From Nitrosopumilaceae archaeon (GTDB lineage: Archaea > Thermoproteota > Nitrososphaeria > Nitrososphaerales > Nitrosopumilaceae), in contig DASQHX010000010.1 in NCBI GenBank assembly GCA_035631875.1, positions 124,001 through 188,000 on the forward strand: 64,000 nucleotides of DNA, in the 5' to 3' direction. The notes under the pieces were generated by a model. That model was not told where the DNA came from. It did no database searches and saw nothing but the letters and a program-made list of their open reading frames with translations. How positions within the stretch are numbered: position 1 is the first letter of the stretch; the number at the start of each line of letters is the position of its first letter. The position numbers and the translations under genes were made by a program. This document shows positions 52,627 through 58,578 of this stretch, piece after piece.

Positions 52627-53508
52627 ATGGATTGGGGATTAAAAAATAGGCTAGCACGCATAATCAGACCACATAGTGGTCGTGGAGTTATGCTAGCAGT
52701 AGATCATGGTTATTTCTTAGGTCCAACAGAGCGCCTTGAAGTTCCACGTAAAACAATCCAGCCGTTGTTACCTTATGCAGATTCTCTCATGTTGACACGA
52801 GGTATTTTGAGAACTTCGGTTGATGAGAAGTATTCTATTCCCATAGTCCTTAGAGTTTCAGGAGGTTCTAGCATCATAGGAAAAGACCTCTCAAATGAAA
52901 AGATAACCACTTCCGTAAAGGAGGCAATAAGGCTTAACGCAACTGCGCTTGCATTATCAATATTTGTAGGGGCACCATACGAACATGAATCACTTATAAA
53001 TCTAGGAAAGCTTGTAGACGAGGGCGAAGAGTACGGCATACCTGTTCTTGCAGTTACCGCAGTTGGAAAAGAACTTGAAAAACGCGATGCCAGATATCTT
53101 GCATTATCATGTAGAATTGCAGCGGAGTTTGGTGCACATATTGTTAAAACATATTATTGTGAAAACTTTGAAAAAGTAGTAAACAGTTGCCCCGTACCTG
53201 TAATAATAGCAGGTGGACCAAAGCTAGATTCTGAGCTTGATGCATTACAATTAACTTATGATGCACTGCATGCAGGTGCTGTTGGAGTAGACATGGGAAG
53301 AAACATCTGGCAGTCAGACTATCCAGTTCCAATGATAAAGGCAGTTCGTGCACTGGTACATCAACGTGTTACTGTCAAAGAAGCACACGAAATATTTACC
53401 AAAAATAAAGAAATTGAAAAAAACCCAAAACCCGCATCTGAAACAATTACCGATCAACCTAAAACTAAAACAAAATCGACAAAATCAAAAAAGACCAAAT
53501 CAAACTAG
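52627..53508 (+). CDS. Class I aldolase (DeoC/LacD, LsrF-like)
   Basis: A 293-residue TIM barrel Schiff-base aldolase. The core shows MLAVDHGYFLGPTERLEVP, the Lys in AHIVKTYYCENF as Schiff-base candidate, and IIAGGPKLDSEL. It matches the archaeal FBA/ADTH synthase/LsrF group. LsrF is the closest I recall because of YFLGPTERL, but function in archaea may be the first step of an aromatic or sugar pathway. The Lys/Thr-rich tail (KTKTKSTKSKKTKSN) is unusual and probably disordered. Confidence 0.75.
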   Translation: MDWGLKNRLARIIRPHSGRGVMLAVDHGYFLGPTERLEVPRKTIQPLLPYADSLMLTRGILRTSVDEKYSIPIVLRVSGGSSIIGKDLSNEKITTSVKEAIRLNATALALSIFVGAPYEHESLINLGKLVDEGEEYGIPVLAVTAVGKELEKRDARYLALSCRIAAEFGAHIVKTYYCENFEKVVNSCPVPVIIAGGPKLDSELDALQLTYDALHAGAVGVDMGRNIWQSDYPVPMIKAVRALVHQRVTVKEAHEIFTKNKEIEKNPKPASETITDQPKTKTKSTKSKKTKSN

Positions 53509-53981
53509 TCTGATATTTTAGAAAGATGCACATGTACTATTTTCCACTTAGTTGATTTTATCAAAACAAACGTTGCTCTACTTAACATAGAAATGTGTTG
53601 TCCTCTGAAACTATAGTTATCGACTATCATCCCTGTTTGTCTTAATTGAAACGTAACGACTACACTGTTTTCAAAAAGATCTATCTTGGGATTTATTATT
53701 TCATATTCATAATCAGATATGCTAACAAACCTTAATTCTTGTAAGGCAATTGTTGTTGCATAATCTTTGAGGTCAAATGGAGGTACATCACTATAGCTCG
53801 AAAATCGTGTATCATTTAGTTGTATAGCAGCTAACGGTGCAAGATTTTTTGTTTTTCCAGCATCAAAAAAAATCTTTATTATTTCCAGTATTTCTTCTCT
53901 GTCAGACAAAATCAACTTTGCTTGAGGAGCTTCGTGTTTAAGTTTTTTGAAAAGCACACAAAATTCATTATTTTTTGTCAT
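53505..53981 (-). CDS. SnoaL/DUF4440-like NTF2-fold protein
   Basis: A 158-residue protein. A long N-terminal helix (EEILEIIKIFFDAGKTKNLA) and the strand ending LIKSTKWKIVHVHLSKI are typical of NTF2-like SnoaL/DUF4440 proteins, which hold small ligands or act as isomerases. No catalytic residues can be read. Its stop interlocks with the convergent aldolase stop (CTAG). Confidence 0.65.
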   Translation of the reverse strand: MTKNNEFCVLFKKLKHEAPQAKLILSDREEILEIIKIFFDAGKTKNLAPLAAIQLNDTRFSSYSDVPPFDLKDYATTIALQELRFVSISDYEYEIINPKIDLFENSVVVTFQLRQTGMIVDNYSFRGQHISMLSRATFVLIKSTKWKIVHVHLSKISD

Positions 53982-54089
53982 GTGATAGTAAAGTATAATG
54001 AAATAATTATCATGTATCTAGGTAGTTTTTAACAAATTTAGTCGATTTTTCTAGCAATATTTATAAATTATTCTTGTTGAAATTCTATA

Positions 54090-54189
54090 GACTGAAATGA
54101 AGTTAGGAGGATCGGCGAGCATTTCTAGTATTCTATTGCTAGTCGACCTTATGCTGTAAGAACACAGCTTAGTTTCTGGTGAAAAATTT
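54090..54189 (+). promoter_or_regulatory. Structured leader before ilvB
   Basis: A TATA box (ATTTATAAATT at 54059-54069) predicts transcription starting near 54090, leaving a leader of about 100 bases before the ilvB ATG, unlike the leaderless genes elsewhere. It holds a 20-codon frame, a Shine-Dalgarno-like AGGAGG at 54105-54110 with no start codon at the usual distance, and competing hairpins: AGCAT (54118-54122)/ATGCT (54151-54155) versus GCTGT (54153-54157)/ACAGC (54164-54168), plus CTAG/CTAG inside. This is the layout of an attenuator-like switch, but unproven. Confidence 0.5.
54097..54159 (+). CDS. Candidate BCAA-rich leader peptide (20 aa)
   Basis: An ATG-to-TAA frame of 20 codons whose second half reads SISSILLLVDLML: six Leu, two Ile and one Val in 20. 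It ends 30 bases before ilvB. In bacteria such peptides sense branched-chain aminoacyl-tRNA supply by ribosome stalling. No comparable archaeal case is known to me, so this is a hypothesis supported by position and composition only. Confidence 0.4.
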   Translation: MKLGGSASISSILLLVDLML

Positions 54190-55878
54190 ATGGAAAAAAT
54201 GTCAGGTGCTAGATCATTAATGGTTGCCCTTGAGAAGGAGGGTGTGGAGCTAGCCTTCGGGCTACCCGGAGGTGCAAACTTGCCAATCTATGACGAGTTA
54301 TACAAAAGCAACATTCGCCACATATTGGTAAGACATGAACAATCTGCATCACATATGGCAGACGGATTTGGGAGAGTAAGCAGGAGACCTGGAGTCTGTT
54401 TTGCAACCTCAGGTCCTGGTGCAACAAACATTGTAACTGGAATTGCAACAGCCCAAGCTGATTCTGCTCCAATGATTGCCATCACTGGACAAGTTCCATC
54501 AAAGATGATAGGTAAAGATGCATTTCAAGAAAGCGATATTATTGGTATTACAAACCCAATCGTCAAATATGCTTTTCAACCAATGGACGCAGCTGAAATT
54601 CCAACAGTGGTAAAAAAAGCATTTTACATTTCATCAACAGGAAGACCAGGTCCTGTCTTAATAGATATTCCAAAAGATGTACAGCAAAATGAAGCCGAAA
54701 TGCATTTTCCAAACGAGGTCAAAGTCAGAGGATATCATCCTTGGGTAGATCCAGACATCAGAGAAATTGAACGTGCAATAGACATGCTTCTCTCAGCAGA
54801 AAGGCCAATAATTCTTGCAGGTGGTGGAGTAATAATTTCTAGTGCTTTTGCAGAATTACAATCAATAGCAGAACTTCTCATGATACCTGTAGTAACTACT
54901 TTTAAAGGAAAAGGATCATTTCCAGAAAATCATCCATTATCACTTGGTCCAATAGGAATGCATGGACATGCAGAAGCAAACAAAATGATGGTTGAGGCAG
55001 ACTGTGTTCTTGCTGCAGGTTCTAGATTTTCAGATAGATCGGTCGGAACATTTGAAGAATTTGAAAAAAGATTAAAAATCATACATATGGATGTAGATCC
55101 AGCAGAGATTGGCAAAAATCAAACAACAACTGTTGCCGTAGTAGGAGACATCAAGGCGTCATTGAGAATAATGGTAAAGATGCTAGTTCAAAAAGCAATC
55201 AAGCGTGGTGACGACAATCCTTGGTTAAAACGAGTAAATGAAACTAGGGATTATTATAGAGAAAATTTGAAGCTTCATCCACATCCACTTGGTGCAGCTA
55301 AAATTTTACGCAAGTTAAGAGAAGTGTTACCTCATCAATCAATTGTAACTACAGAAGTAGGTCAACATCAGATGTGGGCTTCATTATTTTTCGATGTCAT
55401 CCAACCTGGTACTTTCTTTAGTTCAACAGGTCTTGGCACTATGGGTTGGGGATTTCCAGCTGCAATTGGAGCAAAGGCAGCAAAACCAAGTGTTCCAGTA
55501 TTAGATATTGCGGGAGAAGGTAGTTTTAACATGACAGAAAATTCACTTGCCGTATCAGTTTTGGATAATTTGCCTGTAATTGTTTTGTTGATGAATAACT
55601 TTTCACTTGGAATGGTAGCACAATGGCAGAGAACATTTTACGATCGAAGGATGATCGGAATTGATCTTAAAAACTGCCCAGACTATGTTAAATTAGCAGA
55701 AGCATATGGAGCTCAAGGCATAAGAGCCGAGTCGATTGATGAAGTTGGCAAAGCTGTTCAAACCGCACTCAAAAGTGATGTTGCAACTGTAATTGACATA
55801 CCAATAGATCCACAAGAAGATGTTTTACCATTTGTAGCACCTGGTACGCCACTCAAGGACATGATCCTACCATCATAG
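54190..55878 (+). CDS. ilvB: Acetolactate synthase, large (catalytic) subunit
   Basis: A 562-residue ThDP enzyme that joins pyruvate units, or pyruvate with 2-oxobutyrate, in valine, leucine and isoleucine synthesis. The catalytic Glu is E50 in ILVRHEQSASHMADGF. GPGATNIVTGIATA and STGLGTMGWGFPAAIGA match AHAS. The ThDP-Mg motif reads GEG at 442-444 (IAGEGSFNMTENSL) ending MNN, where family consensus is GDG. It is first in ilvB-ilvN-leuA, with 8 bases to ilvN. Confidence 0.95.
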   Translation: MEKMSGARSLMVALEKEGVELAFGLPGGANLPIYDELYKSNIRHILVRHEQSASHMADGFGRVSRRPGVCFATSGPGATNIVTGIATAQADSAPMIAITGQVPSKMIGKDAFQESDIIGITNPIVKYAFQPMDAAEIPTVVKKAFYISSTGRPGPVLIDIPKDVQQNEAEMHFPNEVKVRGYHPWVDPDIREIERAIDMLLSAERPIILAGGGVIISSAFAELQSIAELLMIPVVTTFKGKGSFPENHPLSLGPIGMHGHAEANKMMVEADCVLAAGSRFSDRSVGTFEEFEKRLKIIHMDVDPAEIGKNQTTTVAVVGDIKASLRIMVKMLVQKAIKRGDDNPWLKRVNETRDYYRENLKLHPHPLGAAKILRKLREVLPHQSIVTTEVGQHQMWASLFFDVIQPGTFFSSTGLGTMGWGFPAAIGAKAAKPSVPVLDIAGEGSFNMTENSLAVSVLDNLPVIVLLMNNFSLGMVAQWQRTFYDRRMIGIDLKNCPDYVKLAEAYGAQGIRAESIDEVGKAVQTALKSDVATVIDIPIDPQEDVLPFVAPGTPLKDMILPS

Positions 55879-55886
55879 GGATTCCC

Positions 55887-56378
55887 ATGTGGTCCATAAT
55901 TTCCGTACTAGTAGAGAATAAACCAGGAGTCTTGTTTAAAGTGACAAATCTTTTCAGATCAAGAAATTACAACATAGATAGCATTTCAGTAGGTATAACT
56001 GAAAATCCAGAATTCTCCAGAATGACGATCACTACGTCTGCTGATGAAAAACAACTCAATCAAATAATAAAACAGCTTGACAAATTGATCGATACTGTTG
56101 AGGTAAAACGCTTAGAAGAGAAGATGAGTGTATATAGAGAACTAGTACTCATGAAGATCAAAGTAAGTAAGCCGTCAGACAGCATGGAAATAATGAATCT
56201 TGCAAATGCTTTCAAATGCCAAGTTCATGATGTGAGAAAGACCTCAATCATAATAGAGATAACTGCTACACCAGACAGAATTAATGCATTTGAGGATCTA
56301 GTGCGAGGGTATGGAATTTTAGAAATCGCAAGAACTGGAATATGTGCACTTTCAAGAGGTGGTGTCAATGAAGATTAG
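55887..56378 (+). CDS. ilvN: Acetolactate synthase, small (regulatory) subunit
   Basis: A 163-residue regulatory subunit with an N-terminal ACT domain (SIISVLVENKPGVLFKVTNL, RNYNIDSISVG) that binds valine for feedback inhibition, and a C-terminal ALS-small domain (RELVLMKIKVSKPSDSMEI, VHDVRKTSIIIEITATPDRI). Length and domain order are normal. It overlaps leuA by 11 bases. Confidence 0.95.
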   Translation: MWSIISVLVENKPGVLFKVTNLFRSRNYNIDSISVGITENPEFSRMTITTSADEKQLNQIIKQLDKLIDTVEVKRLEEKMSVYRELVLMKIKVSKPSDSMEIMNLANAFKCQVHDVRKTSIIIEITATPDRINAFEDLVRGYGILEIARTGICALSRGGVNED

Positions 56379-57885
56379 AATTTTTGATACAACACTAAGA
56401 GATGGTGAACAAACACCTGGAGTAGCTCTAACACCAGAACAGAAACTAGGTATTGCAGAAAAGCTAGATGCACTTGGTGTTGATGCTATAGAAGCTGGAT
56501 TTCCAGTAATTTCCGATGGAGAAATGCAAGGTATCAAGTTGATATGTAATGCAAATTTTCGTGCAGAAATATGTGGTTTAGCAAGGACAGATAAAAAAGA
56601 CATAGATGCAGCAGTTACAGCAGGTCTCAAATACATCCACACATTTATCGCAACATCAGACATACATCTCAAGTACAAACTAAAACTATCACGAGATCAA
56701 GCATTGGCAAAAGCAATAGAAGCTGTAGAATATGGAAAATCTCTTGGTTTGCAGGTAGAGTTCTCTGCTGAGGATGCAACAAGAACTGATAGAGACTTTC
56801 TTAAAAAAGTTTTCAAAGAAGTTGCAAATGCAGGTGCAGATAGAATAGACATACCAGACACGGTGGGATATTCCACTCCAGGATATATTGCAGAGATAAC
56901 TAAAGATGCGATTGAAGCAACACATCTACCAATTAGTGTACATTGCCACAATGATTTTGGTCTTGCAGTTGCAAATGCAATTTCTTCAATACAAGTAGGT
57001 GCTCAATGTGCACATGTCACAATAAATGGAATAGGGGAAAGAGCAGGCAATGCATCTCTTGAAGAGTTGGTAATGTCACTTCAATGCTTACAATTTGATA
57101 AAAAATATGAGACAAACATTAACACAAAACTTCTCTATGAGACCTCAAGGTATGTCTCCAGCATAGTAGGAATTCACGTACAACCAAACAAAGCTATCGT
57201 TGGTGAAAACGCCTTTGGACACGAATCTGGAATACATACCCATGGCGTTTTGAGTAATCCATTGACCTATGAGCCAATTAGTCCAGAACTTGTAGGCAGA
57301 ACAAGATGGTTCCAAGTAGGAAAACATGCAGGTGCTCATGGAGTTTCCGCAATGCTTGAAGAATATGGGATTCAACCAACAAGGGAACAAGCTCATGAAA
57401 TTCTTGAGAGAGTAAAAAAACTTGGAGATCAAGGAAAACATGTCACTGATGTAGAATTGCTTTCAATAACAGGAGAAGTCATGCAAACACAAGGTCTAAA
57501 GAGACTAGTACATCTTACAGGATTTTCTGTCTCAACTGGTATGGGCAACATGCCATATGCATTTGTCAAATTAAACATAGAAGGAAAAGACTTTATCGGA
57601 ACTGATTATGGTGTAGGTCCTGTAGACGCATCAATAAACGCAATTCAAAAAATAACTGGCGAGATAGCCAAAGTACGAATTAAAGATTACAAGTTAGATT
57701 CCATAGCTGGTGGCTCTGATGCACTTTGTGAAGTAACAATAAAGGTAGAAGATGCATATGGTAATCTTGCATCAGCAAAATCAATAGGAGAAGACATTGT
57801 AATTACTAGCGTACAAGCCATGATTGATGGCATAAACAGAATAATGCTCAAGAAAATTCTCAAGCAGAAAAATTTAGGAAAATAG
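56368..57885 (+). CDS. leuA: 2-isopropylmalate synthase
   Basis: From the ATG at 56368 (KIRIFDTTLRDGEQTPGVAL), 505 residues. LeuA condenses 2-ketoisovalerate with acetyl-CoA. The catalytic TIM barrel has the RDGEQTPG motif and the HCHNDFGLAVAN metal site. The C-terminal domain (TGFSVSTGMGNMPYAFVKLN) is the regulatory leucine-binding part. An upstream ATG at 56344 would overlap ilvN by 35 bases and is not needed. Citramalate synthase is a less likely alternative. Confidence 0.92.
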   Translation: MKIRIFDTTLRDGEQTPGVALTPEQKLGIAEKLDALGVDAIEAGFPVISDGEMQGIKLICNANFRAEICGLARTDKKDIDAAVTAGLKYIHTFIATSDIHLKYKLKLSRDQALAKAIEAVEYGKSLGLQVEFSAEDATRTDRDFLKKVFKEVANAGADRIDIPDTVGYSTPGYIAEITKDAIEATHLPISVHCHNDFGLAVANAISSIQVGAQCAHVTINGIGERAGNASLEELVMSLQCLQFDKKYETNINTKLLYETSRYVSSIVGIHVQPNKAIVGENAFGHESGIHTHGVLSNPLTYEPISPELVGRTRWFQVGKHAGAHGVSAMLEEYGIQPTREQAHEILERVKKLGDQGKHVTDVELLSITGEVMQTQGLKRLVHLTGFSVSTGMGNMPYAFVKLNIEGKDFIGTDYGVGPVDASINAIQKITGEIAKVRIKDYKLDSIAGGSDALCEVTIKVEDAYGNLASAKSIGEDIVITSVQAMIDGINRIMLKKILKQKNLGK

Positions 57886-57963: not shown

Positions 57964-58578
57964 ATGTTTCTTAAACTATCTAGTCCCTCTCCCATCACAT
58001 TATTATTGATTATTGTAAATGGTGTGATTTTTGCATATGGTACTTTATCAAATTCGCAAGATCAAATCATTTCCCACTATGGATTTGTTCCCGATAATTT
58101 ATTTCGCTACAATCACCCTTTATCAGATGACATAATCAGATTATTTTCCTCAATGTTCATTCATGCAAATATTGCCCATATTGCATTCAACCTTTTGGCA
58201 CTTGCATATTTGGGAGGCTTTGCAGAAAGATCAATTGGCATACCCAGATATCTCTTGATTTATTTATCAGCAGGAGTCTCAGGCGCATTGCTGCATGGAA
58301 TTATTGCATCATTCATTTTGGGAAATGGTTCAAGTGTTTTGATTGGAGCGTCTGGAGCAATTTCAGGCATAATGGGAATTACAGCTGCACTTGGCGACAT
58401 CAGAGGATATTACTGGCTTGCCATACAGATCCTATTTGCATTTGTCGGCTCGTTTGCGTCAATATCAATAGCGTTCATGGCACATGTTGGCGGGTTCATA
58501 GCTGGATTGCTATTGACAAAATTACTAATTGAGATAGAGCGTAAAAAAAGAAAGGGATACTGGAGCTATTCACAATAA
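57964..58578 (+). CDS. Rhomboid-family intramembrane serine protease
   Basis: A 204-residue protein with six TM helices. The catalytic Ser130 is in LIGASGAISGIMG and the His174 in AFMAHVGGFIAGLL. The H72-x3-N76 motif (HIAFNLLALAY) lines the oxyanion region. Substrate is unknown; rhomboids cleave membrane proteins. It sits between leuA and the leuB-like gene, so may be a passenger. Confidence 0.92.
   Translation: MFLKLSSPSPITLLLIIVNGVIFAYGTLSNSQDQIISHYGFVPDNLFRYNHPLSDDIIRLFSSMFIHANIAHIAFNLLALAYLGGFAERSIGIPRYLLIYLSAGVSGALLHGIIASFILGNGSSVLIGASGAISGIMGITAALGDIRGYYWLAIQILFAFVGSFASISIAFMAHVGGFIAGLLLTKLLIEIERKKRKGYWSYSQ

Follow-up and report, generated by a model that had tools for sequence, protein, structure and literature searches.

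We found that the ilvB-ilvN-leuA transcription unit of a Nitrosotalea-like archaeon is preceded by a leader that very probably acts by ribosome-mediated attenuation and would sense charged Leu and Val tRNA. The window (the whole stretch of DNA that was analysed, 64,000 nucleotides) carries an ilvB that is 90% identical to that of Nitrosotalea devanaterra (LN890280), and profile matches place the genes 3' of the leader (ilvB, ilvN and leuA) in Val and Leu synthesis. We collected the regions upstream of ilvB from the genus, family, order, and class of this archaeon, which comprise ammonia oxidizers and related archaea. Comparison of these regions supports the order of promoter, upstream ORF (uORF), helix, Shine-Dalgarno sequence, and ilvB, as well as the selection on Leu and Val codons and the presence of the helix. 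The features of the locus in the window are as follows.

54060-54069, + strand: TATA box TTTATAAATT, promoter of the ilvB leader, seen in the sequence and with its spacing kept in relatives
54089-54091, + strand: predicted transcription start, about 7 nt 5' of the uORF ATG, inferred from TATA spacing in the window
54097-54159, + strand: leader peptide uORF, MKLGGSASISSILLLVDLML and stop, the proposed sensor, with a conserved C-terminus, second-position constraint, and rare Leu codons
54112-54146, + strand: helix P1 within the uORF, UCGGC (54112-54116) with GUCGA (54142-54146), with pairing in relatives
54118-54155, + strand: alternative helix proposed in an earlier note, AGCAU (54118-54122) with AUGCU (54151-54155), a weak candidate and possible anti-structure
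54133-54156, + strand: Leu/Val-rich last 8 codons of the uORF
54153-54168, + strand: stop-codon hairpin P2, GCUGU (54153-54157) with ACAGC (54164-54168), with pairing in relatives
54157-54159, + strand: uORF stop codon TAA
54178-54182, + strand: ilvB Shine-Dalgarno sequence GGTGA, 7 nt 5' of the ATG, seen in the sequence
54190-55878, + strand: ilvB, acetolactate synthase large subunit, ATG at 54190 (TIGR00118, over cut-off)
55887-56378, + strand: ilvN, acetolactate synthase small subunit (NF008864, TIGR00119)
56344-57885, + strand: leuA-type 2-isopropylmalate synthase (NF002085, and TIGR02090 over cut-off)

Two neighboring genes are recorded here for completeness. A rhomboid-family membrane protease gene (57964-58578) is located between leuA and the leuB-like dehydrogenase gene of the ilv-leu cluster, and the gene divergent from the leader (53505-53981, minus strand; 158 amino acids) had no NCBIfam match.

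For the other genes in the window, TTTATA or TTTATT boxes peak at 28-31 nt 5' of the ATG, which is the spacing of leaderless transcripts, and no such box occurs within 80 nt 5' of the ilvB ATG. Because ilvB lacks a near box and the uORF ATG lies 37 nt past the TATA box, transcription is expected to start near 54090, approximately 7 nt before the uORF ATG. The earlier note, made from the letters of the window alone, had claimed a leader of about 100 bases for ilvB amid leaderless genes; this spacing makes the claim plausible, and the predicted start site would place the uORF nearly at the 5' end of a leader of about 100 nt (a near-leaderless uORF). In relatives, the TATA box precedes the uORF ATG by about 30-41 nt.

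Promoter arrangements differ in two groups of relatives. Leaders of genus g53 (L196, L324, and L327) have no uORF and carry a TATATATA box 33 nt before the ilvB ATG, which suggests that in this genus the leader was lost along with a promoter change, the new promoter making ilvB leaderless. Marine Nitrosopumilaceae leaders (L149, L161, L120, and others) contain an almost invariant TTAAAATTATGG approximately 32 nt before the ilvB ATG, and in two genomes without the uORF (L158 and L186) it is replaced by TTTTAAATTATGG, which is more like a TATA box; the marine site is possibly a second promoter.

The 20-codon frame with nine Leu, Ile, or Val codons that had been noted before ilvB is indeed present at 54097-54159, and its stop codon lies 31 nt from the ilvB start. 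A TATA-spaced short ORF with a Leu/Val-rich tail immediately before the stop was found in about 110 of the 118 distinct ilvB leaders in our first family and order set (mostly Nitrosopumilaceae), and two of the eight exceptions are variants, with a TTG start (L090) or a longer spacing (L119). When the pattern was defined as a TATA-spaced ORF with at least five Leu, Ile, or Val among its last 8 codons, 55 of 60 non-redundant leaders contained it, compared with 0.44% of 12,000 dinucleotide shuffles. Beyond this set, the majority of the remaining families in the order have the uORF, and outside the order it was found at 11 of 17 loci of the class, so that the Leu/Ile/Val codons expected to be conserved in relatives are kept at the family level, the order level, and partly the class level. 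Among the ilvB leaders compared, those of families f2 and f22, of genera g29 and g53, and of a few single genomes showed no uORF, and five Methanosarcina-type outgroups had no such uORF upstream of ilvB.

Conservation is concentrated at the C-terminus of the peptide. The N-terminal residues drift freely, and the C-terminal 8 codons are 75% Leu, Val, or Ile (L 241, V 101, and I 19 of 480 residues in the 60 non-redundant leaders), with Leu as the final residue in 54 of the 60. Examples of tails are LLVDLML, LLVELVL, SLVDIIL, LPVVLTL, and LSVVVLL, and in other families LILVIILLL, VLPLVVLL, LIVLLIVV, and NVILLIIV. These data bear on two alternatives in which the peptide itself matters. The first, that the uORF encodes a small protein with a function of its own, or is what remains of a decayed N-terminal extension of ilvB, and is not a regulator, seems barely credible to us: the uORF is in frame with ilvB in the window, but that match is not general, the hydrophobic tail has only 8-10 residues, fewer than a membrane helix requires, and the N-terminal part is free to drift. 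The second is nascent-peptide arrest, in which an LLVDLxL tail ending at the stop would block the ribosome exit tunnel upon binding of a ligand. An LLVD/E-L-x-L tail before the stop does recur in many Nitrosopumilaceae, as do identical CTA GTY codons, yet the tail varies freely while remaining Leu/Val-rich (LPVVLTL, LSVVVLL, LIVLLIVV, VILLIIV) and L, V, and I interchange, and we consider peptide arrest improbable.

Compared with the ilvB genes, the Leu codons of the uORF tails are shifted toward CTG (35% vs 6%) and CTA (24% vs 10%) and away from TTA (7% vs 27%); the over-used codons, CTG and CTA, are the rare ones in the ilvB genes themselves. Phe and Met together make up only 13 of 374 NTN codons (p ~1e-32), and Ile is scarce in Nitrosopumilaceae uORF tails. 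From the near-absence of Phe and Met and the scarcity of Ile, the uORF appears to sense Leu and Val. In the last 9 codons, differences between relatives number 626, 151, and 444 at codon positions 1, 2, and 3, and independent pairs give 35, 18, and 34 (p=0.007). Position 2 is thus the most constrained, as would follow if L, V, and I are exchanged among themselves yet retained as a group. We dropped the classical dN/dS ratio as evidence: it was not low (0.55 in the C-terminus), and the ratio in frame +1 was lower. Because interchange among L, V, and I is counted as non-synonymous, dN/dS is not low in this setting and codon position 2 is the informative measure.

In nearly all families that carry the uORF, a helix is present directly at its stop codon. 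The mean z value of the post-stop structure was -2.35 in leaders of the Nitrosotalea/Nitrosotenuis type, -2.41 in the order's other families, and -2.43 in the class outside the order, and that of the control, the stretch of 45 nt 5' of the uORF, was +0.56, +0.11, and -0.61 in the respective groups. The 5' arm of the helix begins a median of 0 nt past the uORF stop in the other families of the order. Compensatory changes in the stem were found between families, including CCCAGCC:GGCUGGG against CCCAGCG:CGCUGGG, and AAACUUGUAG:CUACAAGUUU against AACCUUGUAG:CUGCAGGGUU. Within the clade of the window, hairpin P2 (GCUGU:ACAGC) is paired in 95% of cells, and helix P1 in 90% of cells across 30 Nitrosotalea/Nitrosotenuis leaders, with G-U/A-U changes only and no double changes; covariation is weak in this clade because P1 and P2 are nearly invariant there. 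The helix conservation and covariation that the earlier note had proposed to look for were therefore recovered at the stop codon between families, whereas the clade of the window itself is close to invariant.

Other elements proposed in the leader fared differently. Two mutually exclusive hairpins had been suggested, of which GCUGU:ACAGC is conserved. The partner, AGCAU:AUGCU, is paired in 88% of cells, but its covariation is not above that of controls and the segment is missing from Nitrosotenuis-type leaders; these data argue weakly for a switch, and leave AGCAU:AUGCU as a possible alternative pairing. The AGGAGG at 54105-54110, thought to resemble a Shine-Dalgarno sequence, instead encodes Leu-Gly-Gly and is found in the KLGG subclade only. 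The true ilvB Shine-Dalgarno sequence is GGTGA, and such a sequence is present in 49 of 85 non-redundant leaders at a median spacing of 8 nt.

Marine Nitrosopumilus leaders have weak local structure after the stop (mean z -0.5) and form a different helix, in which the region of the uORF start is paired with the RNA just past the stop. The pairs include TGAGCACA:TGTGCTCA, TGGATACA:TGTGTCCA, GACCACA:TGTGGTC, and GACTGAT:GTCAGTC. The dG of this helix was -7.9 for a leader's own arms and -5.3 for swapped arms, and 0 of 10,000 permutations matched the own pairs, a comparison in which relatedness is not fully controlled.

The comparison of leaders also bears on whether the RNA alone might be the regulator. 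A ligand-binding riboswitch, or an RNA or DNA operator bound by protein, with an incidental ORF, would account for the conserved helices and for the nearly invariant TTAAAATTATGG of marine leaders. Between families, however, the RNA sequence varies while the Leu/Val codons persist in one frame, and Rfam covariance models, T-box and riboswitches included, gave no match above gathering and no meaningful match for the leader or its relatives. Because the Leu/Val codons are conserved and the RNA sequence is not, the ligand-binding leader RNA that had been offered as an alternative is disfavored, and we regard it as very improbable. The conserved peptide, the stop-codon structure with its compensatory changes, and the lack of a matching Rfam family all favor the other proposal of the earlier note, peptide-sensing attenuation.

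The arrangement of codons and helix suggests how such an attenuator would operate. A ribosome would start on the uORF, whose ATG is a few nucleotides from the 5' end of the mRNA, and decode the stretch of Leu and Val codons, often rare ones, up to the stop codon. When charged Leu or Val tRNA is low, the ribosome would come to a halt on the final codons and sit over the 5' arm of the helix, the helix would be blocked, and ilvB would be on. When Leu and Val are ample, the ribosome would complete the uORF and depart, the helix would form, and expression would drop. Since the helix begins where the Leu/Val codons end, at the stop, a stalled ribosome could itself mask the helix, and no separate anti-terminator would be needed. 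That the uORF is translated, that ribosomes stall on it, in which direction control works, and whether the block is on transcription or translation are points that we infer; the block may be early transcription termination, perhaps aided by FttA/aCPSF1 or by U-tracts, or a lower level of translation.

The evidence on the mode of the block is mixed. U-rich UUAGUUUCU is located directly 3' of hairpin P2 in the window, and U-tracts in this position are confined to the Nitrosotalea/Nitrosotenuis type and a small number of other leaders, most families being without one. As one example outside that type, leader L354 (G378) has an intrinsic-terminator hairpin, GCGGCC..GGCCGC with U6 (GCGGCCTCCTCTCTCGGGCCGCTTTTTT), right after its Leu/Val uORF. 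The accessibility of the Shine-Dalgarno sequence showed no consistent shift with modelled ribosome position, and we therefore rejected its sequestration as a general mechanism. Given the patchy U-tract and the inconsistent accessibility, neither termination nor sequestration is uniform.

These observations are also relevant to translational coupling without transcription attenuation, in which ribosomes on the uORF, slowed by its Leu/Val codons, would hold the leader open or initiate again at ilvB. In keeping with this explanation, ilvB has its own Shine-Dalgarno sequence shortly 3' of the uORF, most families have no U-tract past the hairpin, and in family f18 (L346, L349, and L353) the uORF stop codon overlaps the ilvB Shine-Dalgarno sequence (TAGGAGGTGA); the f18 leaders, two of which (L349 and L353) also have a hairpin with UUUU inside the uORF, may be a translationally coupled variant. 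The lack of a consistent change in accessibility and the U-tract hairpins of L354 and the Nitrosotenuis-type leaders argue against coupling as the sole mechanism, and we judge it rather unlikely. Since the U-tract after the hairpin in Nitrosotalea/Nitrosotenuis-type leaders and L354 points to termination, we lean slightly toward transcription attenuation over translational control.

The uORF appears to be particular to ilvB among the amino acid loci that we searched. The identical uORF test gave 0 matches in 335 kb of his and trp loci of relatives, with no consistent His- or Trp-rich uORFs 5' of hisG and trpE. In 281 kb surrounding ilvC and ilvD there were only four scattered Leu/Val uORF matches; most of these were antisense or lay near the ends of a locus, and we rejected a Leu/Val uORF for these two genes.

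The leader shares with amino acid attenuators a uORF between the promoter and the first pathway gene and a codon run for the product of that pathway. Ribosome-mediated transcription attenuators of bacterial ilv/leu operons include those of Mycobacterium tuberculosis ilvB1NC, with a uORF containing LVVI (PMC13236596), and of Corynebacterium glutamicum ilvBNC (PMC11857589). Like the bacterial ilv/leu systems, the archaeal leader places a short uORF rich in branched-chain amino acids between promoter and ilvB and has hairpins 3' of that uORF, with the same operon logic. Unlike them, it has an archaeal promoter and a near-leaderless uORF, its Leu/Val codons run to the stop where the hairpin starts, and neither a consistent U-tract nor a consistent anti-terminator was seen. 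The leaderless poly-cysteine uORF attenuators of mycobacteria (Canestrari et al. 2020, as cited in PMC9031893) are similar in having a uORF at or near the mRNA 5' end, a run of cognate codons, and control of a downstream gene; as outlined there, they concern cysteine and bacteria, whereas in the archaeal leader the helix past the stop is conserved and control may be exerted at transcription. Termination in archaea at U-tracts and by FttA (aCPSF1), which the abstracts of PMC8716108 and PMC11616081 treat apart from leader peptides, is a possible effector of the OFF state, a link to the leader that is ours. By analogy, the ilvB leader would work like the bacterial ilv attenuators and the mycobacterial Cys uORFs; we do not claim membership in their class, because its terminator and anti-terminator features are ambiguous and translation of its uORF is predicted only.

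In the open-access literature, within which subscription papers and preprints mostly do not fall, we found no archaeal leader-peptide attenuator; the earlier note likewise knew of none for ilv genes in this archaeal phylum. Attenuation goes unmentioned in a review of archaeal transcription-translation coupling, and a Ribo-seq study in archaea reports on uORFs only in general terms. The novelty of an archaeal attenuator is therefore provisional. Tentatively, and with less confidence than we place in attenuation at this locus, we propose that the leader represents an ancient attenuator inherited across the class Nitrososphaeria, with a near-leaderless Leu/Val uORF, direct masking of the hairpin without a dedicated anti-terminator, and termination by U-tract/FttA, and that it may be the first ribosome-mediated attenuator in Archaea.

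Leader-peptide attenuation is a bacterial mechanism that relies on close coupling of the ribosome and RNA polymerase. If our reading is true, an archaeal case spanning the class would count as evidence that in archaea, too, translation is coupled to gene control in a like manner, and the leader would provide a natural assay for archaeal coupling and termination. It would also explain how branched-chain amino acid synthesis is controlled in some of the most abundant archaea of the ocean and soil.
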